64,000 nt of DNA from the NCBI RefSeq assembly GCF_002994045.1, contig NZ_MQUC01000003.1, positions 2,518,501-2,582,500 on the forward strand, in the 5' to 3' direction. Positions 1-63,567 of this stretch are shown here, in pieces. Numbering within the stretch: the first letter of the stretch is position 1; each line of letters begins with the position of its first letter. Under the pieces are notes generated by a model, which was not told where the DNA came from, ran no database searches, and was given only the letters and a program-made list of their open reading frames with translations. Position numbers and translations under genes: made by a program. The stretch is from Nonlabens agnitus. GTDB lineage: Bacteria; Bacteroidota; Bacteroidia; Flavobacteriales; Flavobacteriaceae.

Positions 1-640
1 GAGCGAAATCAAATTCCCATTTACGAAAATAGACTCCACAAACTACCAGTAGAGTTACAAAACTCGCACTCATCATCGCGATAAAATATAATTCGACCTT
101 ATCTGCTGGCAGCCATTGATTAAGTGCTGGAACATCTTTTAAATAGACTAAGAAAAGAACGGTCATGGAAAAAGATATGACCACATTGATCATTTTTATG
201 ACTGCATATTTCACTGCTTTACCGCGTGCTCTTAAGTAAGCAAAAGGGATTACCATGAGCGTGTCAAAAGCAAGAATGCCTGTTACCCATTTCCAATAAT
301 TAGCCGATTTGCCTGACCATGAAGCAACTTGATCCAACAGAAGAAAAGCAAGTGCAACAAAAACAATGGTAGTTGCCAATAATGATAAAAGTGATGTGCT
401 TAATAGCTTGTTGTCGTTTCCGCTTTCGCGAAAGCGAAAAAATGATGTCTCCATACCATAAGTCAACACCACATTAGCTAAAATGATCCAAGAAAAGATA
501 ATGGTGACGTTACCGAAATCTGCTCTTGTGTCCAAATAAGTAGTGAGAACCCAAGTCAATAAAAAAGTCAACAGTCTAGGCAAAACGGTCGCCAGACCAT
601 ACACAAAGGTGTGTTTAAAAAGACGGTTGATGGAACTCAA
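1..640 (-). CDS. Oligosaccharide flippase family protein (Wzx-like), C-terminus cut by window edge
   Basis: The reading frame runs leftward off the window, giving about 213 N-terminal residues. It begins LSSINRLFKHTFVYGLATV, which resembles the amphipathic start plus first membrane helix of Bacteroidota polysaccharide flippases, and at least five hydrophobic segments follow. By family it would move lipid-linked sugar repeats across the inner membrane for LPS or capsule. No ATG is in frame, so I chose the TTG at 640. It lies about 20 nt below a TACCTTTG -7 box (661-668), and an in-frame stop lies a few codons above. Residues about 67-73 (FFRFRES) are encoded by a copy of the palindromic repeat at 421-436. 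The family call is good, the start is moderate and the substrate is unknown. Confidence 0.8.
   Translation of the reverse strand, partial: MSSINRLFKHTFVYGLATVLPRLLTFLLTWVLTTYLDTRADFGNVTIIFSWIILANVVLTYGMETSFFRFRESGNDNKLLSTSLLSLLATTIVFVALAFLLLDQVASWSGKSANYWKWVTGILAFDTLMVIPFAYLRARGKAVKYAVIKMINVVISFSMTVLFLVYLKDVPALNQWLPADKVELYFIAMMSASFVTLLVVCGVYFRKWEFDFA
421..436. repeat. Iterated palindrome copy 1 (in gene)
   Basis: Exact CGCTTTCGCGAAAGCG inside the flippase frame, read as RFRES. Confidence 0.95.
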
Positions 641-660
641 AGACAGTTGGTTTTGAGGTT

Positions 661-668
661 CAAAGGTA
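661..668 (-). promoter_or_regulatory. Bacteroidota -7 promoter box for the flippase gene
   Basis: The minus strand reads TACCTTTG, an exact TAnnTTTG match, about 20 nt before the TTG start and just after the terminator of the preceding gene. I saw no clear -33 element. Confidence 0.55.
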
Positions 669-673
669 CAATT

Positions 674-707
674 AAGGCTGCATTTCTAAGTTAAGAATTG
701 CAGCCTT
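674..707 (-). terminator. Hairpin terminator after the lipoprotein gene
   Basis: AAGGCTGCA (674-682) pairs perfectly with TGCAGCCTT (699-707). Inside this, TTCT and AGAA can also pair. It sits 20 nt past the stop of the leftward lipoprotein gene and before the flippase promoter. The U-run is short. Confidence 0.6.
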
Positions 708-726
708 GTCTCTGTAGGTTTCTAGT

Positions 727-1209: not shown

Positions 1210-1266
1210 AATCCTTTATTTTAAAATGATGTGCATTTATTATGCCTTATTGCTCATAGCTGCTTG

Positions 1267-2241: not shown

Positions 2242-2319
2242 GGAAAGGGAATTAAGAATTAAAGGTTTTTGAAGCTATTCCAAAGTGTAATACGACAATC
2301 CTAAGGTAACCCATTTTCC

Positions 2320-2327
2320 TATCTTTG
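2320..2327 (+). promoter_or_regulatory. -7 promoter box for rsmI
   Basis: TATCTTTG, an exact TAnnTTTG, 15 nt before the rsmI ATG. Confidence 0.6.
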
Positions 2328-2342
2328 CCCTAAACCGCACCC

Positions 2343-3008: not shown

Positions 3009-3030
3009 GCACCCGATAAAAAGCTTCATT

Positions 3031-3312: not shown

Positions 3313-3334
3313 CGCAAATACAAGGTGGCTCTTG

Positions 3335-5183: not shown

Positions 5184-5210
5184 GCTATAAACATTTGAGT
5201 GTTGAAGTTG

Positions 5211-5218
5211 CAAAGGTA
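5211..5218 (-). promoter_or_regulatory. -7 promoter box for trhO
   Basis: TACCTTTG on the minus strand, an exact TAnnTTTG. It overlaps the spurious TTG start at 5213 and so decides the trhO start in favour of the ATG at 5183. Confidence 0.6.
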
Positions 5219-5282
5219 GTTAGATTATAGATAATAGATCGCTGCGCTGTTAGAAGATAGAATATAGAATTGCTTATGCGTT

Positions 5283-5392: not shown

Positions 5393-5411
5393 ATTGTGAT
5401 AAAAGTTTTCT

Positions 5412-5448
5412 CGCTTTCGCGCCTTGCCTGCCGGCAGGCAGGAAAGCG
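5412..5448. repeat. Composite repeat: palindrome interrupted by a second palindrome
   Basis: CGCTTTCGCG (5412-5421), then a 21-nt insert containing GCCTGCCGGCAGGC (5426-5439), then AAAGCG. The two outer parts together are the iterated palindrome. A sister copy with the same junctions is at 12652. Either side of it in this gap (5219-5280 and 5449-5515) I see AT-rich ATAGA-type spacer and nothing coding. Confidence 0.8.
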
Positions 5449-5492
5449 TAATTCCGAACCATCCTATCGTTAATAACCATTGCATCACGCTA

Positions 5493-5523: not shown

Positions 5524-5538
5524 CAGAAAATATTTACA

Positions 5539-6552
5539 ATGGCAGACGATAAAGAAAAAGCAGCAAAGGAGAAAGCGCTCAAATTGACGCTGGACAAGCT
5601 GGATAAGGCATACGGGAAAGGTACGGTAATGAAAATGGGCGACCGCCAGGTGGTTGATGTAGAGGCGATCTCTACAGGTTCACTGGCGTTGAATGCAGCT
5701 CTAGGTGTAGGCGGCTATCCACGTGGCCGTGTGATTGAAATCTATGGACCAGAATCTTCTGGTAAAACAACATTGACGCTACACGCTATTGCCGAGGCGC
5801 AAAAGGCTGGTGGTATCGCTGCGTTTATTGACGCAGAACACGCTTTTGACCGATTCTATGCAGAAAAGCTGGGCGTTGATCTGGAAAACCTGATCATTTC
5901 ACAGCCAGATCATGGGGAACAAGCTCTTGAAATTACTGAGAACCTAATACGCTCTGGAGCGATCGATATTATCGTGATTGACTCGGTTGCTGCATTGACT
6001 CCTAAAAGTGAGATTGAAGGTGAGATGGGTGATTCTAAAATGGGACTGCATGCTCGTTTGATGTCTCAGGCCTTGAGAAAATTGACGGGTACCATTTCTA
6101 AGACGAACTGTACCGTGATTTTCATCAACCAGTTGCGTGAGAAGATAGGTGTGATGTTCGGTAATCCAGAGACGACTACTGGTGGTAACGCGTTGAAGTT
6201 TTATGCATCGGTACGACTGGACATAAGAAGATCCACCCAAATTAAAAACACTGATGGTAGCGTTCAAGGGAACAAGACTCGTGTCAAGGTGGTGAAGAAT
6301 AAGGTGGCGCCGCCATTCCGTACGGCAGAGTTTGATATCTTGTACGGTGAAGGAATTTCCAAAATAGGTGAGGTCATCGATCTAGGTGTTGATTATGAAA
6401 TTATCAACAAGGCCGGTAGCTGGTTTTCTTATGGAGATACTAAACTAGGTCAAGGTCGCGACAGCGTTAAAAACATCCTGATGGATAATCCAGACTTGAT
6501 GGACGAACTGGAAGTGAAAATCATGGAATCCATCAAGCTCGCAAGCAGCTAG
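5539..6552 (+). CDS. recA: Recombinase RecA
   Basis: 337 residues, the normal length. RecA forms ATP-dependent filaments on single-stranded DNA, drives strand exchange and triggers LexA cleavage where LexA exists. The Walker A motif GPESSGKTT lies at residues 70-78. The Walker B strand [12 protein letters not shown] lies near 140. The L2 loop block [17 protein letters not shown] lies near 195. The start is the ATG at 5539 followed by a lysine-rich helix. It is monocistronic by appearance: an intrinsic terminator follows and the gene upstream is divergent. No inteins or breaks were seen. Confidence 0.98.
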
Positions 6553-9291: not shown

Positions 9292-10038
9292 TTAGGAATT
9301 CTGTTGCCTGACAAGATCTTCATAGATGATATTTCTTACGCTTTCGCGAAAGCGAACTTTATCTCTAGGCAACTGCAAGCCGGCAGTTTGTTGGATCTCA
9401 TGGGTTCTTGCACGCATGCGTCCCGGTGATCCATTAAAAAAGGAGAACGGAAAACGCTTCTTGTTGTCATAAAAACTCATGGGAACTACGGGAATTTGGT
9501 GCTCTATGGCCAGTCTAAAGGCACCATCCTTGAAATGATCCAGCAGTATCGACCGGTCTGACGGCACGCCACCTTCTGGAAAAATACATATTCCAACACC
9601 ATCATCCAGTCTGCGGCTGGCGCTTTCAAAAACGGCCTTGCGGCTTTGCGGGTCACCGCGATCTACAAGAATACACGTGCGCTTATAGAAGAAACCAAAA
9701 ATGGGGATTTTAGAAAGCTCTGCTTTACCTACAAAAACAAAGGGGTTTTTTGCTGCCAGCAGCATGAGCATGATGTCTGCCATGCTCGTATGGTTGGCCA
9801 CCAGCATATAGCTTTGTCCCTTCTGCATGTGAGCATCCCTATATATTTGTGGCCACCAGAACATCCCATAGATAACAAACGCAGCCCATGCTTGAGCCAT
9901 CTTGAAAAAGATACCGTAGGTTTTCTCTGAAATAGTCGCCAACACCAGAAACGGAAACATGACCAAAATAGGAATGGCGAGTAGCACATAAAACCAAACT
10001 CTATAAAGAGGCATTACAATATATCGTATCCATTCCAT
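9292..10038 (-). CDS. plsC: 1-acyl-sn-glycerol-3-phosphate acyltransferase
   Basis: 248 residues. PlsC transfers an acyl chain to lysophosphatidate to make phosphatidate at the inner membrane. Two N-terminal hydrophobic segments precede the acyltransferase motif NHTSMAD (H-x4-D) and the second motif FPEGGVPSD. I start it at the ATG at 10038 (MEWIRYIVMPLYRVW). A start at 10077 is possible, but it would place a full promoter (TTG-N19-TATTTTTG) inside the gene. The resulting leader is only a few nt. Near the C-terminus KVRFRESVRN is encoded by an exact palindrome copy (9339-9354). Confidence 0.88.
   Translation of the reverse strand: MEWIRYIVMPLYRVWFYVLLAIPILVMFPFLVLATISEKTYGIFFKMAQAWAAFVIYGMFWWPQIYRDAHMQKGQSYMLVANHTSMADIMLMLLAAKNPFVFVGKAELSKIPIFGFFYKRTCILVDRGDPQSRKAVFESASRRLDDGVGICIFPEGGVPSDRSILLDHFKDGAFRLAIEHQIPVVPMSFYDNKKRFPFSFFNGSPGRMRARTHEIQQTAGLQLPRDKVRFRESVRNIIYEDLVRQQNS
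9339..9354. repeat. Iterated palindrome copy (in plsC)
   Basis: Exact 16-mer, read as RFRES near the C-terminus. Confidence 0.95.
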
Positions 10039-12651: not shown

Positions 12652-12686
12652 CGCTTTCGCGCTTGCCTGCCGGACAGGCAGGAAAG
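12652..12686. repeat. Composite repeat, second copy
   Basis: CGCTTTCGCG (12652-12661), then a 21-nt insert carrying CCTGCCGGACAGGCAGG, then AAAG. It has the same junctions as the copy at 5412, but the right end (CG) is lost. It lies between two convergent gene ends. Confidence 0.75.
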
Positions 12687-12720: not shown

Positions 12721-13815
12721 TCAGGTCAACATAAACAGCTTGCCTGGCAATGGCTTCACCACACCTTTAAGCTCCATGGACATCAGCAAAGAGGCTACTT
12801 TATGAACCGGCATGTGCACCTGTAGCGCAATAATATCTAGCAATTCCTTTTCTTGTTCTTTGAGTACGGTATAGATGGCTCTTTCGTCTTTGTCCAGTTC
12901 CACAAATAACTGCTTTTGAACGGCCACTTCATTTTGTTGCCAGCCTAGTATATATGGTATATCTGCTGCGGTCGTAAGTAAGTGTGCCTTACTTTGTTTG
13001 ATCAGACTATTACAACCTGAAGAATATTTATCATTCACTCGGCCTGGAACAGCAAAAACCTCTCGATTGTATCCGCTGGCCAGGTCTGCAGTGACCAGAG
13101 AGCCTCCTTTTTCTGCACTTTCAATGACCACAGTCGCTTCACTCAATCCAGCAATAACACGGTTGCGACCCAAAAAGTTTTTACGATCAAAAGTGTCCGT
13201 ACTCCAAAAGTCAGTAACAAAACCGCCGTTTTTCTTGACATCATTATTGTGTGCGGCGTGGTTGCGAGGATAGGTCTGATTCAGCCCATGCGCCATGACT
13301 GCCACAGTTTGCAGGCCATGCTCGATAGAAAGTTTATGTGCCAGAATATCTACACCATATGCATAACCACTAATAATGGTAGGATGGAGCGGAGCAATAT
13401 CTGCCATGAATTTTTCCAGAAAAGCGCTGCCTTGACTGGTAATCTGGCGTGTACCGACAATACTTAAGGTGTATGGATTGTTCCAGTTGATGTTTCCGTT
13501 TTCAAAGAAGATGATAGGTCCATCAACGCAATACTGCAATCGCTCTGGATAGTCGTCATTATAGTAAACCCTATACTTGAGCTTGTTTTCTTCAATAAAC
13601 TTGAGCTCGTTTTCTGCCTTTTGGAAAAGGTCTTTTGCTTTGATAAATTGGGCTTTTTTCTCACCTATGCCTTCGATGGCGGCAATTTCACGGTAAGGTT
13701 GTTCAAAGACTGCTGCCGCACTGCCAAAAGTCCTAATCAACTTTTTGGCCATGATATCGCCTATAAGTGGTGCCTTTTTTAAGGCAAGAAGTGAGAGCAG
13801 CTCTTGTTGATCCAT
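12721..13815 (-). CDS. dprA: DNA-processing protein DprA
   Basis: 364 residues. DprA protects incoming single-stranded DNA and loads RecA during natural transformation. An N-terminal helix-hairpin-helix region (about 1-60) precedes the Rossmann-like Smf domain, with SIVGTRQITSQG near 118, ISGYAYGVDILAH near 147 and GGSLVTADLASGYNREVFAVPG near 238. A C-terminal winged helix (about 300-364) completes it. The ATG overlaps the upstream M23 peptidase stop (TAATG), indicating coupling in the scoB-M23-dprA chain. Confidence 0.95.
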   Translation of the reverse strand: MDQQELLSLLALKKAPLIGDIMAKKLIRTFGSAAAVFEQPYREIAAIEGIGEKKAQFIKAKDLFQKAENELKFIEENKLKYRVYYNDDYPERLQYCVDGPIIFFENGNINWNNPYTLSIVGTRQITSQGSAFLEKFMADIAPLHPTIISGYAYGVDILAHKLSIEHGLQTVAVMAHGLNQTYPRNHAAHNNDVKKNGGFVTDFWSTDTFDRKNFLGRNRVIAGLSEATVVIESAEKGGSLVTADLASGYNREVFAVPGRVNDKYSSGCNSLIKQSKAHLLTTAADIPYILGWQQNEVAVQKQLFVELDKDERAIYTVLKEQEKELLDIIALQVHMPVHKVASLLMSMELKGVVKPLPGKLFMLT

Positions 13816-14453
13816 TACCCAAAAATAAAAGGATTAGGATCCAGAATGATTTTTTCAAAAGCCTTGAGATCGCCTTCGGCAAGAACTCCAGGAAAATCAC
13901 CGCGATACTCCTGCATGGTAGTCATCAATTGAAAATGTAGATGTGGCGAGTAACCGCCGTTTTCTTGTGGTGTGCCTAGAGTTGCAATTTGTTCGCTTTC
14001 GCGAAAGCGAACTCCAATTTTCCACGCTTGCATATCAGATTTAGAAAGGTGGCCATAAAGACTGTACAACTTGCCATCATTGTAATCGTGCTCTAAAATT
14101 AGTGTTGGTCCATAATTCCCAGCGTCATCATTATCTGCAAAAGAATGGATTTTTCCATCCATAATCGCGTGAACACTAGTGCCAGCAGGTGCCCATAGGT
14201 CAATTCCCATATGGACGTCGCGCACCGCACCATCCTGAAATCTCGCAGATTTGCGATACAGTGCTCGCTGTTCTTTGTAGCCGCCGTGAGCAACAAATCT
14301 GCCTGTTTGATGGCGATGATCCTCAAGATATTTTTCCATCACGGCAATATCACTCACATCGTTTTTGTCCCAATATGGGTTGTGCACGGAGAGATCCATA
14401 GGGAAATAGTCCTGAGATGCATATCGTGGATCGAGAAGGTTTTTGAATGCCAT
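13815..14453 (-). CDS. M23 family metallopeptidase-like protein
   Basis: 212 residues. LytM/M23 fold with the zinc motifs HMGID (H-x3-D, near residue 82) and SPHLHFQL (near 170). No signal peptide is visible, so it would be cytoplasmic unless exported in another way; many M23 relatives cut peptidoglycan cross-links outside the membrane. The loop before the strand IATLG contains VRFRES, encoded by an exact palindrome copy (13994-14009, extended to a 22-nt palindrome). Start and stop overlap scoB and dprA respectively as TAATG. The fold is confident; the substrate is not. Confidence 0.82.
   Translation of the reverse strand: MAFKNLLDPRYASQDYFPMDLSVHNPYWDKNDVSDIAVMEKYLEDHRHQTGRFVAHGGYKEQRALYRKSARFQDGAVRDVHMGIDLWAPAGTSVHAIMDGKIHSFADNDDAGNYGPTLILEHDYNDGKLYSLYGHLSKSDMQAWKIGVRFRESEQIATLGTPQENGGYSPHLHFQLMTTMQEYRGDFPGVLAEGDLKAFEKIILDPNPFIFG
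13994..14009. repeat. Iterated palindrome copy (in M23 gene)
   Basis: Exact 16-mer with symmetric GTT/AAC flanks, giving a 22-bp perfect palindrome at 13991-14012. Confidence 0.95.
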
Positions 14454-16476: not shown

Positions 16477-17517
16477 TTAAACCTCGTCAAAGTTTACATT
16501 GACTTTTGCGCTGGTAGGACAAGCCTGACAAGTGAGCGTAAAACCGTCGCTGACTTCCTCATCTGTCAAAATGGAGTTCTTGCGCATTTTGACATCACCT
16601 TCCTCAATGAGTGCTATACAGCTGGAGCAAATACCACCTTGACAAGAGTAAGGTGCATCAATATCATTCTTGAGCATCACGTCCAGCATGACTTCATCAC
16701 GTCGCATGGTAAACGTGTGCGTCTCGTCATCCAGAATGACGGTAATTTCAGAAAGGTGACTGTCCTCGGTAATTTCTACATCACTTTCAGTTGATGTGAA
16801 TAGTTCAAATTTGATGTTCTCCTCAGCCAGCAATCCCTTTTCTATGAGGTTGAGTTGGATCATTTGAATCATTTCTTCAGGACCGCATAAGTACGCTTTC
16901 GCGAAAGCGAACCCTTCACAATCATTCTTCAAAAAATAGTTCAAGTTGCCTTTTGTTATCCTACCAAACAAGGCATCCTGACGCTCCTCACGGCTGAAAC
17001 AGTATTTCAACGTAAATCGCTCACCGTACTGGTCTTTAAGGTCATTGAGCTGTTCGAGATAAATGGCCTGACTTTCTGATTGATTCCCATAAATCAATGC
17101 TACTTTATTGTCAGCATCGATAGCTAGTGCGGTTTTCAAGATCGACATGATAGGCGTTATACCGCTACCTGCTGCAACCATCAAAAAGGTTCCCTTTTCT
17201 TGCTTCTCATGAATGAACAACCCATCTGGCGGCGCTACTTCTAAGGTATCGCCAGCTCGCAGTTTCATAGCATAATTTGAAAAAACGCCCAGATCTACCG
17301 CCTTGACCACCACCATTAATTGGTCGTCGTCAGGAGCGCTGCTTATGGAGTAAGCGCGACGCACCTCATTGCCATCAATCGTGGCTTTAAGTGTCAAATA
17401 CTGACCTGCCTGATATCGGAATTCTTCCTGGAGACTGCCAGGGATTTCAAAAATAATTTCAACGGCTCTAGAAGTAACCTTAGTGACTTGTTCAATGCGT
17501 AATTCGTGAAAAACCAT
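16477..17517 (-). CDS. Ferredoxin-NADP reductase-like flavoprotein with C-terminal 2Fe-2S domain (PaaE type)
   Basis: 346 residues. Domains in order: FAD-binding barrel (RAYSISSAPDDD near 55), NAD(P)-binding domain (AAGSGITPIMSILKTAL near 115; YLCGPEEMI near 209), and a plant-type 2Fe-2S ferredoxin (CQGGICSSC near 293 plus a later C in TCQACP). It passes electrons from NAD(P)H to an oxygenase. No paaABCD genes are present, so the partner is unknown. An exact palindrome (16894-16909) encodes FAFAKA just before the conserved YLCGPEE strand. It is divergent from the DUF5687 permease gene. Confidence 0.88.
   Translation of the reverse strand: MVFHELRIEQVTKVTSRAVEIIFEIPGSLQEEFRYQAGQYLTLKATIDGNEVRRAYSISSAPDDDQLMVVVKAVDLGVFSNYAMKLRAGDTLEVAPPDGLFIHEKQEKGTFLMVAAGSGITPIMSILKTALAIDADNKVALIYGNQSESQAIYLEQLNDLKDQYGERFTLKYCFSREERQDALFGRITKGNLNYFLKNDCEGFAFAKAYLCGPEEMIQMIQLNLIEKGLLAEENIKFELFTSTESDVEITEDSHLSEITVILDDETHTFTMRRDEVMLDVMLKNDIDAPYSCQGGICSSCIALIEEGDVKMRKNSILTDEEVSDGFTLTCQACPTSAKVNVNFDEV
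16894..16909. repeat. Iterated palindrome copy (in reductase gene)
   Basis: Exact 16-mer, read as FAFAKA. Confidence 0.95.
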
Positions 17518-19114: not shown

Positions 19115-19130
19115 CGCTTTCGCGAAAGCG
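19115..19130. repeat. Iterated palindrome copy (intergenic)
   Basis: Exact 16-mer, 24 nt after the permease stop and before the ATPase gene. It could form an RNA hairpin. Confidence 0.95.
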
Positions 19131-21008: not shown

Positions 21009-23630
21009 TTGAAAAATCTTTTTGCTTTTACTGCCATCATTTTTTGCCTGCTGCTAGTTCTCGCCAGTTGTAGCCGTAAGAATGATTCTTTTATTAGCCG
21101 CAACCTGCATGCGGTTGGTACAGAATATAATACGCTCTATAATGGCAATCTTGCTTTACAGGCTGGACTGGATAATATAGAGGCAAATTATAGGGACAAC
21201 TACTGGGATATCTTGCCCGTAGAGCGCCTGACAGTCAAAGACGAAATAAGAGTTAGTGCAGACGACCGGTCTGATCCCAACTTTTCACTAGCCGAAGAAA
21301 AGGCCGTCAAGGCAGTTCAAAAACACAGCATGCTTATCGACGGTGAAGAAGTGAACCCACAAATCGACGAGGCCTATATGCTACTGGGAAAAGCCCGTTA
21401 TTATGATCAGCGCTTTATTCCTTCGTTAGAAGCTTTCAACTATGTATTGCAATTCATGCCAGAATCTGATGAGATTAGAATGGCAAAAATCTGGCGCGAG
21501 AAGACCAACATGCGCCTGGAGAACAATGAAATTGCCATTGAAAATTTACAACAGCTTATCAAAGAAGACAGTCTCGAGATTGAGCGTGAAGAATTGATTC
21601 TTGCTAATGCTACTTTGGCTCAGGCTTATCTTAATGTGGATAAAGTTGACAGTGCGCTTATTTATATGAACCGCGCTGCCCAAAAAACAAAGGATCGAGC
21701 CACTGAAGGTCGTTACAAATTCATTGCCGGACAGCTTTTTGCAAAGGCAGGTCAAAGAGACAGTGCCATTGCACATTTTGACGAGGTCATTGAATTACAT
21801 AGGAAAATACCTCGCAACTACTACGTCAACGCCTTCATAGAAAAAATCAAACTTAGAGATACGGTAGAACAGTCTGATGATGAGTTTCTAGAAGTGTTCA
21901 ATGAGCTGGAAGAAAACAGGGAAAATAGGCCATGGCTGGATATCATCAATTATCGCAAGGCCATATACCTGGAAACTATCGACAGTGTAGACGGCGCCGT
22001 GGCTTATTATAACAAGTCCTTGAAAGCCGGCGATAGAGATCCATATTTACAGGGAAACATCTATGATGCTTTGGGCCGCATCAGTTTTGACGATGCCCGT
22101 TTTGAAACAGCTGGAAAATATTTTGATAGCGCATCTACCAGATATGAGGATAAATCCAGAGAACAGCGTGCGGTTATCAAGAAGAGAGAAAATCTGGCAG
22201 ATATTATTCTTTACGAGAGCAATCGCCGCAGTGCTGACAGTCTCTTGAGTATCGTTGCCATGAGCGACGGCGAACGAGTAGAATATTACAACAACTACAT
22301 AGAAGAACTAAAAGAGCGCGAGGCACAGCTAGCCGAACAGGCAGCCATAGAAGAAGCAAATCTTGCCCAGCAAAAAACAGCCCTTGCGACCATCCAGACC
22401 AACAATTCCGTTAATAACAGATTGGGGCCACCTAGTGGTGCTACCATAAATGATTCAGGTCCAACAAGCACCAACAGTGGTTTCTATTTTTATATACCGG
22501 CAACGGTGGCAAGAGGCAAGTTGCAGTTTAGGGCTATTTGGGGAAATCGCGCCCTCAAGGATAATTGGAATCTGGCGAGCGTGAACAGCAACCTGATCGA
22601 TGAGGCGACAGACGGTAGTGTCACCGCCATAGAAAACGGCGATCTAGCTCCAGAATATCAAGCAGCCTACTACATTGACCGCTTACCAAAAGGTCAAGTG
22701 GCATTGGATAGCATTGCGGGAGCTCGCGATTTTGCCTACTATCAGTTGGGTGTTTTGTATAAGGAGAAATTCAAGCGCAATGACCTTGCGATCGATAGGT
22801 TTGAAACGCTTTTGACCTTTGAGCCAGAAGAAAAGCTGCTGCTTCCTACGCTGTACAATCTATACTTAATGGGTCGTGACGGCTCAAATGACGGTAGTGA
22901 TATCGCTTTCGCGAAAGCGGAACAATACAAATCCACCATCATATCACAATATCCTGAAACCAGATACGCACAAATCCTTCAAAATCCTGACGGCAAACTT
23001 GACACCAGTGAAACTGCAGAAGGTGTCTATAATCGCATCTTCAAACAGTACGAGCAAGAAAACTATGCTGCTGTTATTGAACAGGCAAACAATCAAATCA
23101 TCCGTTTTGCGGGCGATCCCATCATTCCAAAGTTGGAACTTTTAAAGACCTATGCATCGGGTAGACTATATGGATTCAAGGCCTATAAAGAAGGTCTTGA
23201 TTTTATTGCATTGAACTATCCCAGTACAGAAGTAGGTAAGGAAGCCGCAGTTCTAGCGGCAGATGCAGAAAAACTAGTGATCCCAAGTGAATTTGCACCA
23301 GAGGAAAACAGCAATAACTTTAAGCTGGTCTATACCGTCGATGCGGCAAATGAGCAGCTTATCAATGACTTAAAACTCAATCTGGAACAACCAGCAAAAG
23401 CATTAGGTAGCGACATCACTTATTCCATAGATGTTTACACACCGCAACAGTCACTGCTCGTCATTCATGGTATGAAAACCAAAGATAGAGCAGCACAAGT
23501 GGCCACCTATCTGGATGAAAATCTGAAAGGCGTCGAGCTACCTTCCATGCCGGTAGCCATATCGTCAGAAAACTACAAGATCATACAGGTTTACAAGAGC
23601 CTCAACGATTACATGATACAGATCCCATAA
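21009..23630 (+). CDS. porW: Type IX secretion system lipoprotein PorW/SprE (TPR protein)
   Basis: 873 residues. The signal peptide ends in a lipobox VLASC (Cys20-21). NLHAVGTEYNTLYNGNLAL and YWDILPVERL near the start match the PorW/SprE family, with TPR-like helices through the first half. SprE/PorW is needed for type IX secretion and gliding, probably linking outer-membrane parts to the motor. An in-frame stop at 20988 forces the TTG start at 21009. An exact palindrome (22904-22919) encodes IAFAKA near residue 633. Bactofilin follows after 11 nt. Confidence 0.9.
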   Translation: MKNLFAFTAIIFCLLLVLASCSRKNDSFISRNLHAVGTEYNTLYNGNLALQAGLDNIEANYRDNYWDILPVERLTVKDEIRVSADDRSDPNFSLAEEKAVKAVQKHSMLIDGEEVNPQIDEAYMLLGKARYYDQRFIPSLEAFNYVLQFMPESDEIRMAKIWREKTNMRLENNEIAIENLQQLIKEDSLEIEREELILANATLAQAYLNVDKVDSALIYMNRAAQKTKDRATEGRYKFIAGQLFAKAGQRDSAIAHFDEVIELHRKIPRNYYVNAFIEKIKLRDTVEQSDDEFLEVFNELEENRENRPWLDIINYRKAIYLETIDSVDGAVAYYNKSLKAGDRDPYLQGNIYDALGRISFDDARFETAGKYFDSASTRYEDKSREQRAVIKKRENLADIILYESNRRSADSLLSIVAMSDGERVEYYNNYIEELKEREAQLAEQAAIEEANLAQQKTALATIQTNNSVNNRLGPPSGATINDSGPTSTNSGFYFYIPATVARGKLQFRAIWGNRALKDNWNLASVNSNLIDEATDGSVTAIENGDLAPEYQAAYYIDRLPKGQVALDSIAGARDFAYYQLGVLYKEKFKRNDLAIDRFETLLTFEPEEKLLLPTLYNLYLMGRDGSNDGSDIAFAKAEQYKSTIISQYPETRYAQILQNPDGKLDTSETAEGVYNRIFKQYEQENYAAVIEQANNQIIRFAGDPIIPKLELLKTYASGRLYGFKAYKEGLDFIALNYPSTEVGKEAAVLAADAEKLVIPSEFAPEENSNNFKLVYTVDAANEQLINDLKLNLEQPAKALGSDITYSIDVYTPQQSLLVIHGMKTKDRAAQVATYLDENLKGVELPSMPVAISSENYKIIQVYKSLNDYMIQIP
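22904..22919. repeat. Iterated palindrome copy (in porW)
   Basis: Exact 16-mer, read as AFAKA between two helical repeats. Confidence 0.95.
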
Positions 23631-24619: not shown

Positions 24620-24635
24620 CGCTTTCGCGAAAGCG
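24620..24635. repeat. Iterated palindrome copy (intergenic, before atpB)
   Basis: Exact 16-mer within a 26-bp perfect palindrome (24615-24640), directly behind the AtpI-like gene. Confidence 0.95.
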
Positions 24636-27318: not shown

Positions 27319-27337
27319 AACAAATTTTGAACAGTAC

Positions 27338-27353
27338 GCTTTCGCGAAAGCGA
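27338..27353. repeat. Iterated palindrome copy (intergenic, atpH-atpA)
   Basis: Exact 16-mer inside the ATP synthase operon, 20 nt after atpH and 59 nt before atpA. Confidence 0.95.
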
Positions 27354-32079: not shown

Positions 32080-32095
32080 CGCTTTCGCGAAAGCG
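32080..32095. repeat. Iterated palindrome copy (between convergent genes)
   Basis: Exact 16-mer inside a 26-bp perfect palindrome (32075-32100) that overlaps the last codons of the leftward DoxX gene. It could act as a two-way hairpin. Confidence 0.95.
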
Positions 32096-41582: not shown

Positions 41583-42509
41583 ATGCTGCAACTAGTTGAT
41601 ATAGATTTCGCTTTCGCGAAAGCTAAAACCCTCAAAAACATCTCCTTACAGTTGGAACAAGGCGCTGTTGTTGCCGTAATGGGCGAGAGCGGCTGCGGGA
41701 AAAGCACCCTACTCAATCTCATTTATGGGATCTTGCAGCCTGATACTGGTAAAATCCTATGGAATGGCAAAGAATTACTGGGTCCAGACCATCATCTCGT
41801 TCCCGGGCATCCCATGATGAAATACGTACCGCAAGAATTCGACCTCATGCCCTACACTACAGTGTTTGAAAATGTGGGCGAGCACCTTTCCATACAACTG
41901 GATGATCGTGCACAAACTATCCACAGACTTTTAGAGGTCGTAGAAATGGAAACCTATGCAGACCGTAAGGTCAAAACTCTTTCTGGTGGTCAAAAGCAAC
42001 GTGTCGCCATTGCCAAAGCACTGGCGCAACAACCACAACTACTATTGCTTGACGAACCCTTCAGCCACGTGGATAATTTTAGGAAAAACACCTTAAGACG
42101 CAGACTTTTCAAACACTTAAAGGATGAAAATATTAGCGCTCTTATCGCAACACATGATCGCGACGATGTGCTTTCATTTACTGATGAAACCATCATTATG
42201 AGAGCAGGTCACATCGTAGATCATCGATCTACTAGAGAAGTATACCATGACCCAAAAGACGTTTACGGAGCTACTTTGTTTGATGATATCAACGTGCTGC
42301 CGTCTGGTGTGATGTCAAATACAAAAGATCTTTTGTTATATCCACATCAATTAGAGATCGCAAATGCTGGATATGAAAGCTTAGTGGTTAATTCCTATTT
42401 CAAAGGCAAATCTTATTTGATTGAATGCAAGTCTGCAGAGCGTACATTTTGGGTGAAATCACAGAAGGAGCTCTCCAATTCTTCAATAGTTTATTTAAAA
42501 ATCAAGTAG
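41583..42509 (+). CDS. ABC transporter ATP-binding protein (CysA/PotA-like)
   Basis: 308 residues. Walker A GESGCGKST (about 34-42), Q-loop VPQEFDLMP, signature LSGGQKQRV (near 132), Walker B LLLLDEPFSHVD (near 152) and switch HDRDDV are present. The C-terminal 90 residues resemble the regulatory extension of importers. No permease or binding-protein gene is next to it, which is unusual for this type. The palindrome variant at 41609 encodes FAFAKA right after the first strand, in the A-loop position before Walker A. Confidence 0.88.
   Translation: MLQLVDIDFAFAKAKTLKNISLQLEQGAVVAVMGESGCGKSTLLNLIYGILQPDTGKILWNGKELLGPDHHLVPGHPMMKYVPQEFDLMPYTTVFENVGEHLSIQLDDRAQTIHRLLEVVEMETYADRKVKTLSGGQKQRVAIAKALAQQPQLLLLDEPFSHVDNFRKNTLRRRLFKHLKDENISALIATHDRDDVLSFTDETIIMRAGHIVDHRSTREVYHDPKDVYGATLFDDINVLPSGVMSNTKDLLLYPHQLEIANAGYESLVVNSYFKGKSYLIECKSAERTFWVKSQKELSNSSIVYLKIK
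41609..41624. repeat. Iterated palindrome, one mismatch (in ABC ATPase gene)
   Basis: CGCTTTCGCGAAAGCT; the last base differs from the consensus. Read as FAFAKA. Confidence 0.85.
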
Positions 42510-44784: not shown

Positions 44785-44800
44785 CGCTTTCGCGAAAGCG
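44785..44800. repeat. Iterated palindrome copy (intergenic)
   Basis: Exact 16-mer, 39 nt after the TonB receptor stop. Confidence 0.95.
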
Positions 44801-46905: not shown

Positions 46906-46921
46906 CGCTTTCGCGAAAGCG
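46906..46921. repeat. Iterated palindrome copy (intergenic, accB-accC)
   Basis: Exact 16-mer, 40 nt after the accB stop and 37 nt before the accC start, inside the operon. Confidence 0.95.
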
Positions 46922-53208: not shown

Positions 53209-54069
53209 TTAATTGTCAAATAATTCTTTGAAGGTAAAGACTTTATCCAGTCGCACACCTTTATCAGTATGTTTTACAGTGATGATTTCATGAAAAGGAT
53301 CGTGTTCCAGGATCAAATAGTAGTTATGTGTAGCTGCCCTGTCCAGAAATTTTGCCTTTTCATCAAGAGTTAACAATGGTCTAGTATCATAGCCCATTAC
53401 GTATGGTAAAGGAATATGACCTGCAGTAGGTAAAAGGTCTGCCATATAAACGAAGGTTTTACCGTCAACTTCCAGGTGTGGGATCATCATCTTTTCAGTG
53501 TGACCATCCACAAACAAAATGCCAAAATCCATCTCTTCACGCTCTTGAAATTCTGAGGTTTGATCTATAAAATGGAGCTGGCCACTTTCTTTAATGGGTA
53601 GAATATTTTCTTTAAGGAAACTTGCTTTTTCTCTTTCGTTAGGTTCTGTAGCCCATTTCCAGTGGTTGTGGTTGGTGTGGAATTTCGCTTTCGCGAAAGC
53701 GGGCTCATAAATCTTCTTTTCCTTATTATAAACTATTGCACCACCAGAATGATCAAAATGCAGATGGGTAAGGAACACGTCTGTAATATCATCCCTGGAA
53801 AAACCTAATTTGTTGAGGGAGCTATCCAGATCATATTTATGATCCATGTAATAGTAGCCGAAGAACTTTTCAGACTGTTTATTTCCCATTCCTGTATCCA
53901 GCAGCGTGAGTCTGTCGCCATTCTCAATCAACAAGCAGCGCGCCGCCATATCGATCATGTTGTTGGAGTCTGCCGGGTTAGTGCGAGACCATAATGACTT
54001 AGGCACCACGCCAAACATAGCACCGCCATCCAATTTAAAATTTCCAGCTTCTACAGGATAGATATTCAT
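53209..54069 (-). CDS. MBL-fold metallohydrolase
   Basis: 286 residues. The zinc motif HLHFDHSGG (near 105), FVDGHTEKMM (near 172) and late LILEHDPFHE (near 255) define a lactonase/metallo-beta-lactamase fold. No signal peptide is present, so it is cytoplasmic. The substrate is not determinable; AHL-lactonase-like relatives share this architecture. Its fifth-strand region EPAFAKAKFHTNHNHW is partly encoded by an exact palindrome copy (53686-53701). It is followed closely by the S8 protease gene. Confidence 0.88.
   Translation of the reverse strand: MNIYPVEAGNFKLDGGAMFGVVPKSLWSRTNPADSNNMIDMAARCLLIENGDRLTLLDTGMGNKQSEKFFGYYYMDHKYDLDSSLNKLGFSRDDITDVFLTHLHFDHSGGAIVYNKEKKIYEPAFAKAKFHTNHNHWKWATEPNEREKASFLKENILPIKESGQLHFIDQTSEFQEREEMDFGILFVDGHTEKMMIPHLEVDGKTFVYMADLLPTAGHIPLPYVMGYDTRPLLTLDEKAKFLDRAATHNYYLILEHDPFHEIITVKHTDKGVRLDKVFTFKELFDN
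53686..53701. repeat. Iterated palindrome copy (in MBL gene)
   Basis: Exact 16-mer, read as AFAKA. Confidence 0.95.
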
Positions 54070-56707: not shown

Positions 56708-56723
56708 CGCTTTCGCGAAAGCG
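56708..56723. repeat. Iterated palindrome copy (between convergent genes)
   Basis: Exact 16-mer within a 24-bp perfect palindrome (56704-56727), 52 nt after the antiporter stop and 15 nt from the lepA stop. No other terminator is visible here. Confidence 0.95.
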
Positions 56724-58637: not shown

Positions 58638-61052
58638 ATGAAAATTATTACGCTTATGGTGCTGCTCGTGAGCCTTCAAATCACAGCTCAACATTCCATA
58701 CAAGGAAACCTAATAGATGAACAGAACCAGCCGGTAGCCTATGCCAATGCACTGTTGTTCAAAATGCCTGACAGCACTTATTACAAAGGCACTACTACAG
58801 ATGATAATGGTCGGTTTAAGATGGAAAACATTGCAACGGGCGACTATACTTTTGCAGCGAGTTATATAGGATATGTAACGCTTTCGCGAAAGCTGACCAT
58901 CAACAACACCACGAACTTAAACGATCTCCTTCTTTCCACTGCAACAGAATCGCTAGACGGCGTCACCGTCACCGCAAGGCGTCCCACGATTGAAAAACGT
59001 CCCGACCGATTGATTTTCAACGTAGTAAACACCTCGCTAAGCACCAGTAATGCCGCAAATATTTTGAAGAACACACCTGGTGTTTTTGAAATGAACGGTT
59101 CCTACATGGTACAAAACGCTACGGCAGTAATCTACATAAATGACAGACGCGTGTACATTACACAAGACGAGCTCAACGATTTTTTAAGAAGTCAGAGCGG
59201 TGATAATATCAAGAGCGTCGAGGTCATCACAAACCCGTCAGCCAATTATGATGCAGAAGGTGTTGCCGTGATCAACATCAACACCAGTAAAGGCGTGTCT
59301 CTAGGTTACAAAGGTTCCATAAACGGTAGTTATTCTATTGATGAACTTGCCAAGTATCAGATTGGAACTTCACAATTCTACAAGAACAACTGGGTAAATA
59401 TCTATGCCAACTACAGTTACAATCCACGTAAAGACTTAAAACTGGACGAGGCTCAAGTAGGCTTTTTCAATCCTGACGGCTCTCGCAGCTCGCGATGGTT
59501 TACAGATTTTGAAAAGGTGACAGAAAGTGATGCGCACAACCTCAACACGGCCATCGATTTTACACTTGACGACAGCAACGACATCAGCATTTCCGCAAAT
59601 TACAGTGCCAACAATAATCAAGACGTAAGAACAGATGTGGAAACCTTCATTTTGCCCAGCGGCTCCATGAGTTTTGATGGTTTTGACACCAACAGCGACC
59701 TGGCTATTGACCGTACCACAGGTTTTGTAAACGCAGCCTGGAACAACTCTTTTAATCAAGGTGCTGGTCGTTTCTCTCTTGAAGGAAACTACATTTTTAC
59801 AGATCGTGACAAAACACAAGATTTATTGAGTAATTTTTTCGATCAAAACGGTGCCACTACTTCTACCAACAGTTTCTTTACAGATGCTGCCCAGACTATT
59901 GATATCGCTGTCGCGAAAGCAGACTACGAAAACACCATCGGGAATTACCTGCTTAAGGCTGGTGCCAAATTCTCTGATGTAAGCTCTACCAGCCAACTAG
60001 ACTTTTTTGATACAGATACGGGCTCACGCCAGTTCAACGCCGCTCTTTCAGATCGTTTTATATATGACGAAAATATCTATGCCGCCTATTTCCAGGTAGA
60101 TCGCGATTGGGATAGATGGGCCATGGCGCTAGGCCTACGCGCAGAACAAACAGATGTAGAAGGCGACAGTCGCTCTTTGGGTCAGGTCAATACGCAGGAA
60201 TATTTTGAGCTATTCCCTAACCTTTCTGTGACGAACCAAGTAAGCGACAACCACTCCTTAACCTTGAGTTATAGACGCTCTATCGAGCGACCGCGATATG
60301 AGAGTTTGAATCCGTTCACGTATTTTATAAATGATAATAATGTGAACACAGGAAATCCTAACCTGCGACCTTCTTTCACAAACCGTTTGGACCTTAACTG
60401 GACGATTAAAAATCAATATTCCTTTGATTTATATTATGTCAATACTAAGGGTGCTTTAGCCATATTACCTTTTCAGGATAACCAAACTAACGTCCTGAAT
60501 TCACAAAATGTCAATATGGAATACGAACGTCAGTATAGTTTTGACTTTTCTACTTATAAATATCTTACTCAATCCATTTTTGTACAGCTTCAAACAAGCC
60601 TCTATCATCAAGAAAATGAATTTAGAGCGTTGAAGTCTGAAAAGGAACTACAAAAACTGAATATTACTGGTTTTTATTTTAGCGCATTTAGTAGAATCAC
60701 TCTTTCAAAGGATCGAACCTTAAGTCTAGATGTGAACACCAGTTATCTGTCAAACTATCTCGCTGGATCGTACGAACTTAAAGATAGGTTAGAAACAAAG
60801 ATTGGCTTTTACAAAAGCCTATGGAATAATCGCGCTTTCGTAACATTAGATTATAGTGACATCTTCTTAAGTCAAAATCAGCCGCTCAGGTCCAGATATC
60901 AAAATCAGGATAATGAATTCCTCGCCATACCAGAAACAAATCTGATTACAATAGGGTTCACTTATAAATTTGGGAACTTTAGACTGAGTAATCGTGATGT
61001 ATCAACTCCAGATGACCAAGAGCGGACCAATGCTAAAGGTGTCGGATTTTAG
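58638..61052 (+). CDS. Outer membrane beta-barrel/TonB-dependent receptor family protein
   Basis: 804 residues. Signal peptide (1-18), carboxypeptidase-like regulatory domain (IQGNLIDEQNQPVAYANAL, to about 105), a plug-like region with ILKNTPGVFEMNG and VEVITNPSANYDAEGVAVI, and a long barrel (YRRSIERPRYESLNPFTYF near 550). It belongs to the OMP_b-brl_3 group rather than SusC. Two altered palindrome copies lie inside: 58879 (read TLSRKL) and 59906 (read IAVAKA). An exact copy follows 8 nt after the stop. Ligand unknown. Confidence 0.88.
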   Translation: MKIITLMVLLVSLQITAQHSIQGNLIDEQNQPVAYANALLFKMPDSTYYKGTTTDDNGRFKMENIATGDYTFAASYIGYVTLSRKLTINNTTNLNDLLLSTATESLDGVTVTARRPTIEKRPDRLIFNVVNTSLSTSNAANILKNTPGVFEMNGSYMVQNATAVIYINDRRVYITQDELNDFLRSQSGDNIKSVEVITNPSANYDAEGVAVININTSKGVSLGYKGSINGSYSIDELAKYQIGTSQFYKNNWVNIYANYSYNPRKDLKLDEAQVGFFNPDGSRSSRWFTDFEKVTESDAHNLNTAIDFTLDDSNDISISANYSANNNQDVRTDVETFILPSGSMSFDGFDTNSDLAIDRTTGFVNAAWNNSFNQGAGRFSLEGNYIFTDRDKTQDLLSNFFDQNGATTSTNSFFTDAAQTIDIAVAKADYENTIGNYLLKAGAKFSDVSSTSQLDFFDTDTGSRQFNAALSDRFIYDENIYAAYFQVDRDWDRWAMALGLRAEQTDVEGDSRSLGQVNTQEYFELFPNLSVTNQVSDNHSLTLSYRRSIERPRYESLNPFTYFINDNNVNTGNPNLRPSFTNRLDLNWTIKNQYSFDLYYVNTKGALAILPFQDNQTNVLNSQNVNMEYERQYSFDFSTYKYLTQSIFVQLQTSLYHQENEFRALKSEKELQKLNITGFYFSAFSRITLSKDRTLSLDVNTSYLSNYLAGSYELKDRLETKIGFYKSLWNNRAFVTLDYSDIFLSQNQPLRSRYQNQDNEFLAIPETNLITIGFTYKFGNFRLSNRDVSTPDDQERTNAKGVGF
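58879..58894. repeat. Iterated palindrome, one mismatch (in receptor gene)
   Basis: CGCTTTCGCGAAAGCT, read as LSRKL. Confidence 0.85.
59906..59921. repeat. Iterated palindrome, two mismatches (in receptor gene)
   Basis: CGCTGTCGCGAAAGCA, read as AVAKA. Confidence 0.7.
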
Positions 61053-61059: not shown

Positions 61060-61075
61060 CGCTTTCGCGAAAGCG
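61060..61075. repeat. Iterated palindrome copy (intergenic)
   Basis: Exact 16-mer, 8 nt after the receptor stop and ahead of dusB. Confidence 0.95.
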
Positions 61076-61129: not shown

Positions 61130-61133
61130 CAGC

Positions 61134-62126
61134 ATGGTTAAGATAGGCGACATTCAATTACCAGATTTCCCATTACTTCTCGCACCTATGGAAGATGTGA
61201 GTGATCCACCATTCCGTACGTTGTGTAAGGAAAATGGTGCAGATGTCGTTTTTACAGAGTTCATTTCTAGCGAAGGCCTCATAAGAGACGCCGCAAAAAG
61301 CACCATGAAACTGGACATTTATGAAACGGAGCGACCTGTTGGTATCCAGATTTTTGGCGCCAATATGGAATCCATGCTACAGTCTGTAGAGATCGTGGAG
61401 CGCACCAAGCCAGACATGATTGACATCAACTTTGGTTGTCCCGTGAAAAAGGTAGTTTCTAAAGGTGCCGGCGCAGGAATTCTAAAAGACATTGACCTGA
61501 TGGTGCAACTTTCTGCCGCCATGGTCAAGCACACCAATTTGCCTATTACCGTAAAAACACGATTGGGTTGGGATCACGACTCCATCAAGATCGTTGAAGT
61601 AGCAGAGCGTTTGCAAGATGTAGGTATCAAGGCCATTAGTATTCACGGTCGCACGCGAGCCCAGATGTACAAAGGCGATGCCGACTGGAAACCTATTGCA
61701 GAAGTTAAGAACAATCCACGGATGCATATTCCGGTTTTTGGGAATGGCGATGTCAACACACCAGAGCGTGCTGTAGAAATGCGTGATGAATATGGACTTG
61801 ACGGCGCTATGATAGGTCGGGCCAGTATAGGTTATCCATGGTTTTTTAGAGAAGTCAAGCACTTTTTCAAGACCGGCGAGCACTTGGATCCACCTACCAT
61901 GCAAGAACGTGTGGAGGTAGCGAGACGCCACCTGGAAATGGCTATTGCCTGGAAAGGAGAAAAACTAGGCGTTTTTGAAACCCGTCGTCACTATACTAAT
62001 TATTTCAAAGGGATTCCCAACTTCAAAGAACACCGCATGAAAATGGTCACTAGCGATGATAGTGCATCAGTTTTTGCCGCTTTTGAAGAAGTGTTGCAGG
62101 AATTTGGTGATTATAGCTTTGCTTAA
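61134..62126 (+). CDS. dusB: tRNA-dihydrouridine synthase (DusB type)
   Basis: 330 residues. TIM-barrel flavoenzyme: LLLAPMEDVSDPPFRTLC near residue 14, the catalytic cysteine in INFGCPVKKVVSKGAGAG (near 103), and FMN-binding GNGDVNTPE and GAMIGRASIGYPW (near 223). It reduces specific uridines in the tRNA D-loop using NADPH. The ATG agrees with the typical family start MVKIGDIQLPDFPL. The promoter box sits so close that the mRNA is probably leaderless. Confidence 0.95.
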   Translation: MVKIGDIQLPDFPLLLAPMEDVSDPPFRTLCKENGADVVFTEFISSEGLIRDAAKSTMKLDIYETERPVGIQIFGANMESMLQSVEIVERTKPDMIDINFGCPVKKVVSKGAGAGILKDIDLMVQLSAAMVKHTNLPITVKTRLGWDHDSIKIVEVAERLQDVGIKAISIHGRTRAQMYKGDADWKPIAEVKNNPRMHIPVFGNGDVNTPERAVEMRDEYGLDGAMIGRASIGYPWFFREVKHFFKTGEHLDPPTMQERVEVARRHLEMAIAWKGEKLGVFETRRHYTNYFKGIPNFKEHRMKMVTSDDSASVFAAFEEVLQEFGDYSFA

Positions 62127-62185
62127 AGCTTAATTATTACTGCTTTACCCAACTCTTCCTTTTAATTATCACCAACTCGAATATT

Positions 62186-62219
62186 CCTGTCACCCTGAAC
62201 TCGTTTCTGGATCTGTTAG
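62186..62219. repeat. Worn dispersed repeat (CACCCTGAACTCGTTTC family)
   Basis: The CACCCTGAACTCGTTTC core resembles, from memory, a hairpin repeat common in Bacteroidota intergenic DNA and related to the copy at 29931; the right arm is altered (TGGATC). Nothing else is evident in the 223-nt gap between dusB and the permease gene. Confidence 0.45.
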
Positions 62220-62349
62220 AAGTAAGCGCAAAATAATGGTGATTTAAAATTCGATCGCAAATAAGTTGCCTTTAGTGAGAATATTGGTATCATCTAAGCA
62301 TCGCAAAAAAGGATGCTAACATGCAAAAACATGACAGAAGAAAATCGGT

Positions 62350-63567
62350 TTACAACTTCGCTTGAGAAAGCAACCGGTCGTTGATCCTGCGGCTACCTAC
62401 ATAACTGGCTATAATTCCCAGTACGGCAATCGTCAATAAAGAAACCAAGACATTCAAAAGCTCCATCGCAAAAGGATAAGGTATACCTGGAGCAATGTAG
62501 ATCCAGTTATAATGGATCTGGCCATATACAAACCCTATACCTATCAACAAACCGATGATGCCGCCAGAGAGCGTCATTAGGGTTCCCTGTAAAAAGAATA
62601 TAAGGCGTAGTTGACCTACCTCAGCGCCTAGATCTGCCAGGGTTTTGAGGTTTTTCTTCTTGTCTAAAATCATCATGATGATAGAACCTACCACATTAAA
62701 AAGAGCAATGATTAACACCAGTGTAAAAATCAAATACACCGCCAGATTCTCACTGTTCAACATCTTGTAGAGCGCACCGTTAAGCTGCAGCTTGTTTTTG
62801 ATTTCAAGATCCACATCAAAAAGAGCAGTGATCTCTTCACGCACCTCATCTTCCATGTCAGGATCGGTAAGCTTGATTTCAAGCGCCGTGACCGTGGAGT
62901 CACTATAACTAAGCAACGTTCGAGCAGCACTCAGCCGCATGAAAATATACTTGTTGTCTAGATCTTCATTAACGCTAAATTGTCCCGTGGCAATCGCATC
63001 CAGCGTGCTAAAAGAACGGCTTAAATTCATCGCATTGATCGCATTGGTACCTGGTCGCGGCACCATGATTTGCATAAAGGTTGAATAATCGTTGACAGAT
63101 ATAGAAAGGTCGTCTGCAATTCCTGCACCCATGACCACTTGGGGATCATTGTCAGTAAGCCAGCTACCGTAAATTAGAATGGAATCTGGCGACACGATCT
63201 GGTCATAATTGTCTGGCACGCCTTTTATATAGGCAATGTCATTTTTTTCAGAATAGCTTAAAAAGGCCTTTTCTTCAATGACTTCAGAGAGCACTTGGAT
63301 ACCAGTGATGTTTTCGAGAGCACGCTTTCGCGAAAGCGGAACATTCAACGTTTTTCCCTGCACCGCCGTGACCTGAAGGTCTGGATCAAAATAACCGCTA
63401 AAACTGGTGCTAAACTCCTTCAACCCGCTAAAACCAGAAAGCACAATAAACAATGCCGTGGTCCCAACGATTGTGATAATAAAGCTGAGGATATTGATGA
63501 TGTTGATGGCATTCTTGCCATTCTTGGAAATCAGGTAACGTCGCGCTATGTAAAACGAAAAGTTCAC
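62350..63567 (-). CDS. FtsX-like ABC transporter permease (LolC/LolE-like)
   Basis: 405 residues. An N-terminal helix (FYIARRYLISKNGKNAINII), a large periplasmic domain (about 45-265), and three further helices (about 270-395; VGSIIMMILDKKKNLKTLADLG) form the MacB/LolC architecture. It is likely an inner-membrane subunit for lipoprotein release; the ATPase gene is not adjacent. The start is GTG at 63567, immediately after the rbfA stop, so the pair is coupled. An exact palindrome (63323-63338) encodes PLSRKR in the periplasmic domain. Confidence 0.88.
   Translation of the reverse strand: MNFSFYIARRYLISKNGKNAINIINILSFIITIVGTTALFIVLSGFSGLKEFSTSFSGYFDPDLQVTAVQGKTLNVPLSRKRALENITGIQVLSEVIEEKAFLSYSEKNDIAYIKGVPDNYDQIVSPDSILIYGSWLTDNDPQVVMGAGIADDLSISVNDYSTFMQIMVPRPGTNAINAMNLSRSFSTLDAIATGQFSVNEDLDNKYIFMRLSAARTLLSYSDSTVTALEIKLTDPDMEDEVREEITALFDVDLEIKNKLQLNGALYKMLNSENLAVYLIFTLVLIIALFNVVGSIIMMILDKKKNLKTLADLGAEVGQLRLIFFLQGTLMTLSGGIIGLLIGIGFVYGQIHYNWIYIAPGIPYPFAMELLNVLVSLLTIAVLGIIASYVGSRRINDRLLSQAKL
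63323..63338. repeat. Iterated palindrome copy (in permease gene)
   Basis: Exact 16-mer, read as LSRKR. Confidence 0.95.

Follow-up and report, generated by a model that had tools for sequence, protein, structure and literature searches.

What does a bacterium do with a perfect 16-base palindrome that returns every few thousand bases, in genes and spacers alike? The question is raised by a stretch of Nonlabens agnitus DNA (contig NZ_MQUC01000003.1, positions 2,518,501 to 2,582,500), which is 64,000 nucleotides long and is called the window here. The 16-mer, CGCTTTCGCGAAAGCG, occurs in it 17 times exactly, twice with one mismatch and once with two. Two additional copies are split, each by a 21-bp insert. 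At up to three mismatches there are 20 matches, where dinucleotide shuffles give 0.24, so a first-pass annotation of this DNA was right that chance does not account for the word. In Nonlabens and Dokdonia, the palindrome looks like a genome-wide recognition mark for a candidate protein, perhaps one that sorts self DNA at uptake.

The N. agnitus genome (G000, 3.2 Mb) has 676 exact copies, and 819 within one mismatch. The same 16-mer read backwards served as a control, and its count is zero in every genome counted. In 41 stretches of N. agnitus, together 864 kb, an order-5 Markov model expects 0.10 strand-counted copies and 350 are observed. Models of order 6 and 7 expect 22 and 218, and both already contain most words of the motif. 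The first-pass annotation had asked for copies beyond the window and above a Markov expectation, and both are there. Its figure of one copy about every 3 kb is near the mark in the window, where the mean spacing is 3.5 kb (17 exact and two one-mismatch copies), and too dense for the genome, which averages about one exact copy per 4.8 kb. The mismatch spectrum in the same 864 kb is sharp. Exact copies number 175; at one, two and three mismatches the counts fall to 37, 15 and 11, and the numbers at four and five (27 and 164) are background. In 19 of the 37 one-mismatch copies, it is the outermost base that is altered.

All 23 Nonlabens genomes searched carry the palindrome, in 180 to 737 exact copies. 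Among 76 other relatives just 4 have it, with 1 to 4 copies each. A family sample of 397 genomes has 349 without any copy and 48 with at least one. These 48 are 4 Nonlabens, Dokdonia sinensis (G266, 630 copies), a member of a third genus (G250, 153 copies) and 42 others with 1 to 13. Across named genomes, at least 111 stretches with the 16-mer were found; most of them belong to Nonlabens or Dokdonia, and unrelated bacteria contribute one apiece. The likeness in habit to HIP1 or to uptake sequences that was proposed at first is apt, and the signal spans genome and genus. On a one-gene PorW tree of 29 rows the three bearing genera require two changes, and such a tree is compatible with either one or two origins of the motif.

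Other words of this kind were sought as well. In 80-100 kb each of G029, G035, G034, G033, G028, G030 and G136, no palindrome of at least 12 bp exceeds 2 copies. The word TTTCTTCGGAA was considered as a dialect in other genera and rejected: it recurs in three genomes, but its surroundings are not constant. A plasmid search with one site plus its flanks gave no match. The 12-mer, 14-mer and 16-mer of the motif were not found in the open-access papers searched, nor was a paper joining Dokdonia, Nonlabens and palindromes, or, among the matches listed, a relevant uptake paper. The 10-mer TTTCGCGAAA does occur there, in ten papers, one of which (PMC8034619) deals with words missing from animal genomes. 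Words of up to 10 bases have been counted in three flavobacteria, with A/T-rich ones alone listed (PMC7965970).

The 16-mer forms the centre of a longer, symmetric DNA site under strong selection. Read outward from the core, the strand is poor in G for about 18 bp on each side, and more weakly so to 30. In 446 flanks from N. agnitus, G makes up 2-5% at flank positions 3-6, and the flank information amounts to 4.5 bits in positions 1-18 and 0.5 bits in 19-30. The signal is alike on both sides of the core, whether the copy lies in a spacer or in a gene of either strand. It also reaches the wobble bases of codons, where A+C is 25% in the 18 bp upstream, 74% in the 18 bp downstream and 49% elsewhere in the same genes. 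This means that selection acts on the DNA rather than on the protein.

The A-minus-T rhythm of the flanks is strongest at 10-11 bp, a weak effect among nine periods tried and given without a significance test. Mirror positions of the flanks show no consistent covariation in the N. agnitus copies. Single pairs do deviate, in spacers at position 11 (36 against 27.7 pairs) and position 6 (11 against 21.3), and in coding copies at position 1 (55 against 45.2). The lack of consistent covariation indicates that the flanks act as two independent half-sites and not as a longer hairpin. The edge of the core differs between groups: the first flanking base is A at 0.69 in N. agnitus, T at 0.59 in Dokdonia, mixed in other Nonlabens, and G at 0.47 in stretches of other genera. 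G250 has the weakest flank signature (22 sites). The symmetry, length, sharpness and flanks of the site point to a sequence-specific dimer that would touch or bend a duplex of 50-75 bp.

The positions of the copies are conserved too. Six sites of the window were compared in 16 other Nonlabens, where 72 of 96 places could be aligned, by local similarity that may favour conserved places; two further sites had no aligned place. All 16 bases are kept in 46 of the 72 places, and at least 14 in 58. Without the nearly identical G007 this becomes 40 and 52 of 66. Over the aligned parts, 15 of the 16 compared Nonlabens are 73-80% identical to N. agnitus in DNA. At the 58 kept places, identity is 64-72% within 18 bp of the core and reaches 74-80% at 60-200 bp; identity of the core itself is inflated at these places, since kept cores were selected. 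Of the 14 places that lack the site, the seven at three coding sites all align without gaps, so coding copies differ by substitution. At spacer sites one of seven does so and the other six are gapped, and there insertion and substitution are both compatible with the alignments. In four genomes of other genera, no alignment spans any site.

Placement was studied in 52 stretches of 20 kb from N. agnitus plus the window, with genes predicted by a simple script. Spacers make up roughly 10% of the DNA, but they hold 95 of the 225 copies (42%). The other 130 are in predicted genes. Spacer types are alike in density: in the smaller set of 175 copies, there are 42 in 49.2 kb of tandem, 17 in 20.9 kb of divergent and 11 in 9.7 kb of convergent spacer. 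Among the coding copies 77 of 130 are read in the AFAKA frame. The first 35 codons of genes hold 31 coding copies, 25 of them in this frame, which near a protein start would suit the end of a signal peptide.

The copies also repel each other. The 203 gaps between them have a mean of 3.9 kb and a coefficient of variation of 0.49, against 0.88 in simulation, where the lowest of 500 runs gave 0.75. Just one gap is shorter than 800 bp, where 38.2 are expected. In other genomes, simulations of the listed positions equalled the observed evenness in 8 of 2000 runs (G002), 20 of 2000 (G266) and 97 of 2000 (G016). Density along the chromosome shows no trend (Spearman 0.16, p 0.27, 52 stretches). No dropout of copies was seen at either end of the skew axis, where origin and terminus positions are not settled: dnaA, parB and the skew extrema fall at different places in N. 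agnitus. None of this repulsion, nor the strand asymmetry of the flanks, the conservation of positions or the split copies, had been part of the first-pass annotation.

Two of the 52 stretches have no copy, at a GC content of 0.366 and 0.383, yet a stretch at 0.364 has 3. One stretch without the 16-mer, L222 (G000:C4:1860001-1880000), has five predicted minus-strand genes that are each exactly 966 bp long and may be a repeated element; it also carries four copies of CCTGCCGGCAGG. At a contig end, in L191 (G000:C4:1-20000), the word AAGCTACACGATCCAGCAG is repeated 24 times in a long tandem array whose period is about 387 bp.

Outside the bearing genera, the palindrome occurs on islands. Of 20 stretches around sparse copies in other Flavobacteriaceae genera (L244-L263), 14 share DNA with L244, an island whose genes resemble metal efflux (an RND-type pump, a P-type ATPase and similar genes, identified by eye in the translations). 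Similarity over aligned pieces is 67-99.9%, several palindromes are at matching places across genera, and the flank signature is visible in 31 distinct copies from the 20 stretches. This suggests repeated export of metal-efflux islands from motif-bearing hosts. Beside an island, L252 has a ParB-like protein in a 616-aa open frame, which is also present in Nonlabens G019 (G019:C1:1269093).

Viral sequence has the palindrome as well. In IMG/VR, 41 stretches carry the 16-mer, and some of these are phages by their tail, head or portal families, one by an integrase. Many of these copies have G-poor flanks, while those on GC-rich contigs do not. On the phage contigs L155, L158, L168, L180 and L187 the flanks are G-poor, and some are identical between contigs.

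An uptake or self-recognition signal is the most likely reading of this analysis, held at slightly under even confidence. The palindrome would be the core of a symmetric predicted protein-binding site of about 52 bp (up to 76 bp), made of two mirror-image half-sites, each with 8 core bases and a G-poor flank of 18-30 bp with a weak helical-turn rhythm. Its use would be self-recognition of DNA in natural transformation, through a probably dimeric receptor that would recognise the site in double-stranded DNA as it arrives and so favour entry, via ComEC, DprA and RecA, of DNA from the same group. The resulting bias in uptake and recombination would maintain one site every few kb of shared genome, where genes tolerate it, with edges specific to the genus, or dialects.

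The genome-wide excess, the flank signature, the even spacing, the kept places, the spacer enrichment, the favoured frame of the coding copies and the dialects are counted in favour of uptake. So are the presence of ComEC, found by family search in all 32 genomes tested, of which 20 are Nonlabens, and two sequenced phages of a Nonlabens-type host that have no copy at up to three mismatches (the second searched minus its last 652 bases). Riemerella columbina, from the same family, prefers its own DNA in transformation, according to PMC7965970. In the neisserial case, DNA uptake sequences are described in PMC2397512 as highly conserved within slightly more divergent, permissive parts of the core genome.

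Other observations weigh against uptake. ComEC is found equally in 10 of 10 tested genomes that lack a genome-wide set, and so does not discriminate. Known uptake sequences are not palindromes, according to PMC1939737, and the 16-mer core is one. Mismatched forms are scarcer than uptake bias usually leaves (175/37/15/11 in 864 kb). The evenness of the copies is strong; the same paper calls uptake sequences 'not as evenly spaced' as compaction sites would be, and also cites even spacing of uptake sequences as reported elsewhere. Phage contigs bear several copies: a 23.9-kb contig that encodes an integrase has 4, for example, and a 37.4-kb one with genes for baseplate and portal proteins has 6. 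The listed literature matches on transformation mention neither Nonlabens nor Dokdonia, and no receptor or other binding protein was identified. Places are also hardly shared between genera. Dokdonia has 54 coding sites, of which 25 have any Nonlabens match and 17 are aligned across the place. Among these roughly 17 comparable places, one is exact in Nonlabens and one is decayed there; the single shared place is in a signal-peptide-like protein start. A narrower comparison of Dokdonia places against N. agnitus, also with G250, found 0 of 6 shared.

The palindrome, its scarce mismatched forms and its strong evenness are explained at least as well by a site for chromosome architecture or repair inside the cell. 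On that account, the main rival to uptake, a homodimeric protein of chromosome architecture or of recombination and repair would be loaded at intervals of about 4 kb and would organise, protect or segregate the chromosome, which is a tentative but serious possibility. MatP, SlmA, Noc and ParB are homodimers of this type that bind their own chromosomal sites. Such a protein would match the perfect dyad symmetry, the sharp mismatch spectrum and the strong repulsion of copies with no density trend round the chromosome. The 10-11 bp A/T rhythm of the flanks, weak and without a significance test, would suggest bending, and copies on phage contigs and on the metal-efflux islands of other genera fit as well. 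An architectural site, however, need not vary in its edge bases by genus, and there is no dropout at the skew-axis ends as there would be for Noc or SlmA sites. An extra ParB or Noc protein was rejected as the binder, given that the ParB family count does not track the motif: 26 of 28 genomes have one match and 2 have two, namely one Nonlabens and one genome without a genome-wide set. Of the roles first proposed, uptake signal and protein-binding site are still candidates, and methylation and RNA hairpin are disfavoured. For methylation the model is HIP1, an abundant palindrome that PMC4390886 ties to methylases, and here a methylase would recognise a centre such as TCGCGA or CGCG. This is improbable, as G007 and G009, two of the 11 Nonlabens checked, lack any match to PF00145 or PF01555, yet carry 680 and 427 copies. 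These two methylase families, the ones examined, do not track the motif. A 16-bp core with 18-bp flanks also far exceeds the usual length of a methylase site.

A Chi-like hotspot, read single-stranded by a helicase-nuclease, has a similarly slim chance. On either side, the strand running 5' of the core is rich in G and T and could be a RecA-loading region, and the count of Chi in the E. coli genome is similar (1008, PMC1939737). None of 32 genomes has RecC (PF04257), for which E. coli was the positive control; RecBCD Chi was rejected, as RecC does not track the motif. Chi sites are moreover short and not palindromic. Single strands of three copies do fold into hairpins, but an RNA hairpin or transcription terminator is very unlikely in view of the like density in tandem, divergent and convergent spacers, the 104 of 175 copies within genes in the smaller set of 864 kb, and the mirror positions without consistent covariation. 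Least probable of all is a dispersed mobile repeat of the repetitive extragenic palindrome (REP) or miniature inverted-repeat transposable element type. It would explain the many near-identical copies, and 6 of 7 Nonlabens spacer orthologs without the site align with gaps. Against it, all 7 orthologs lacking the site at three coding places are gapless, and the flanks are alike in composition, not in sequence.

Within the window, the exact copies divide between genes and spacers. Those in genes are at 421..436 (predicted gene 2-640, minus strand), 9339..9354 (3' end of an acyltransferase-like gene), 13994..14009 (gene 13815-14453, minus strand, which matches peptidase-like families only weakly), 16894..16909 (PaaE-like reductase gene 16477-17517, minus strand), 22904..22919 (porW/sprE, 21009-23630, plus strand), 34508..34523 (alanine racemase), 38067..38082 (gene of a protein sorted by the type IX secretion system), 53686..53701 (lactonase-like) and 63323..63338 (lolC/E-like). 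The spacer copies are at 19115..19130, where at least 14 of 16 bases are kept in 13 of 14 aligned Nonlabens, and at 24620..24635, which has the lowest conservation of the six tested places (4 of 9). Others are at 27337..27352 between atpH and atpA, at 32080..32095, at 44785..44800, at 46906..46921 between accB and accC, at 56708..56723 with convergent open reading frames on both sides, and at 61060..61075 before dusB. Sixteen of the 17 starts had been placed correctly at first; the atpH/atpA copy had been put at 27338, one base too far.

Both one-mismatch copies reported earlier are present, at 41609..41624 (start of an ABC ATPase gene) and 58879..58894 (within open reading frame 58638-61052). 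In each the outermost base differs and the copy ends in T. A weak two-mismatch copy is at 59906..59921, and the split copies had been overlooked. The recA and dprA genes named at the outset are confirmed by family match, recA at 5539..6552 on the plus strand (PF00154) and dprA at 12721..13815 on the minus strand (PF02481 and the DprA winged helix). They are context here, and each adjoins a split copy.

The first split copy (5412..5448, minus strand) is 90 bp upstream of recA and has a 21-bp palindromic insert separating CGCTTT from CGCGAAAGCG. The second (12652..12686, minus strand) has a related 21-bp insert and is about 35 bp downstream of dprA. The insert, CCTGCCTGCCGGCAGGCANGG, is itself palindromic and splits some sites between the same two parts. 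At up to three mismatches, the composite occurs 9 times in N. agnitus, 7 in G007, 14 in G004, 4 in G250, 2 in G020 and once in G015, and in none of the other 34 among 40 genomes tested. Exact composites number 5, 3, 4 and 1 in the first four of these. The copy at 5412-5448 is in the middle of the largest gap between copies in the window (421 to 9339). The homologous place has an intact palindrome in G020 and a two-mismatch copy in G019; the G022 stretch did not align there. The intact palindrome in G020 indicates that the insert hit a pre-existing site.

With rather less than even confidence, we suggest a previously undescribed genome-marking system. Its palindromic address would recur evenly along the whole chromosome and be recognised, as duplex DNA, by a candidate dimeric protein that wraps or bends about 50-75 bp. 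The address would be used in at least three flavobacterial genera, at largely different places, would also be carried on phages and metal-efflux islands, and would in turn be targeted by a palindromic insertion of 21 bp. As an uptake signal it would be, to our knowledge, the first known from Bacteroidota and the first with a palindromic sequence, and it would help account for preferential gene exchange among marine bacteria. As an architectural site it would be unusually regular and would offer hundreds of natural replicas for testing bacterial chromosome organisation. On either reading, the site is defined sharply enough to capture its binding protein with one oligonucleotide.

Known systems resemble it in part. 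REP sequences that spread with their associated tyrosine transposases (RAYT) are confined to spacers and spread as a unit, and here 130 of 225 copies are in predicted genes. Chi shares the similar copy number per genome and the G/T-rich strand 5' of the site, but the palindrome is symmetric and long, and RecC is absent. HIP1 (GCGATCGC, cyanobacteria) is likewise a highly iterated palindrome of unsettled function; the palindrome here is twice as long, has another sequence and a flanking asymmetry, and goes with no consistent PF00145/PF01555 methylase. Noc/ParB, MatP and SlmA are dimeric chromosome proteins with palindromic sites of 12-16 bp. Compared to those sites, the palindrome has many more copies, no dropout was found, and there is no extra ParB.

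The DNA uptake sequences (DUS) of Neisseriaceae and uptake signal sequences (USS) of Pasteurellaceae have a weak flanking signal, which the palindrome site shares. The 16-mer differs from them in being a perfect palindrome of 16 bp, with symmetric flanks, a sharp mismatch spectrum and a host in another phylum, where their core is non-palindromic. The likeness lies in hundreds of near-identical copies that are enriched in spacers and sit at permissive yet conserved places (PMC2397512 and PMC1939737), in fairly even spacing (PMC1939737), in dialects (PMC3630211) and in the tolerance of copies within coding sequence. Like an uptake sequence, the palindrome is over-represented in a related group, keeps its permissive places (at six sites), varies by dialect and is found together with competence machinery.

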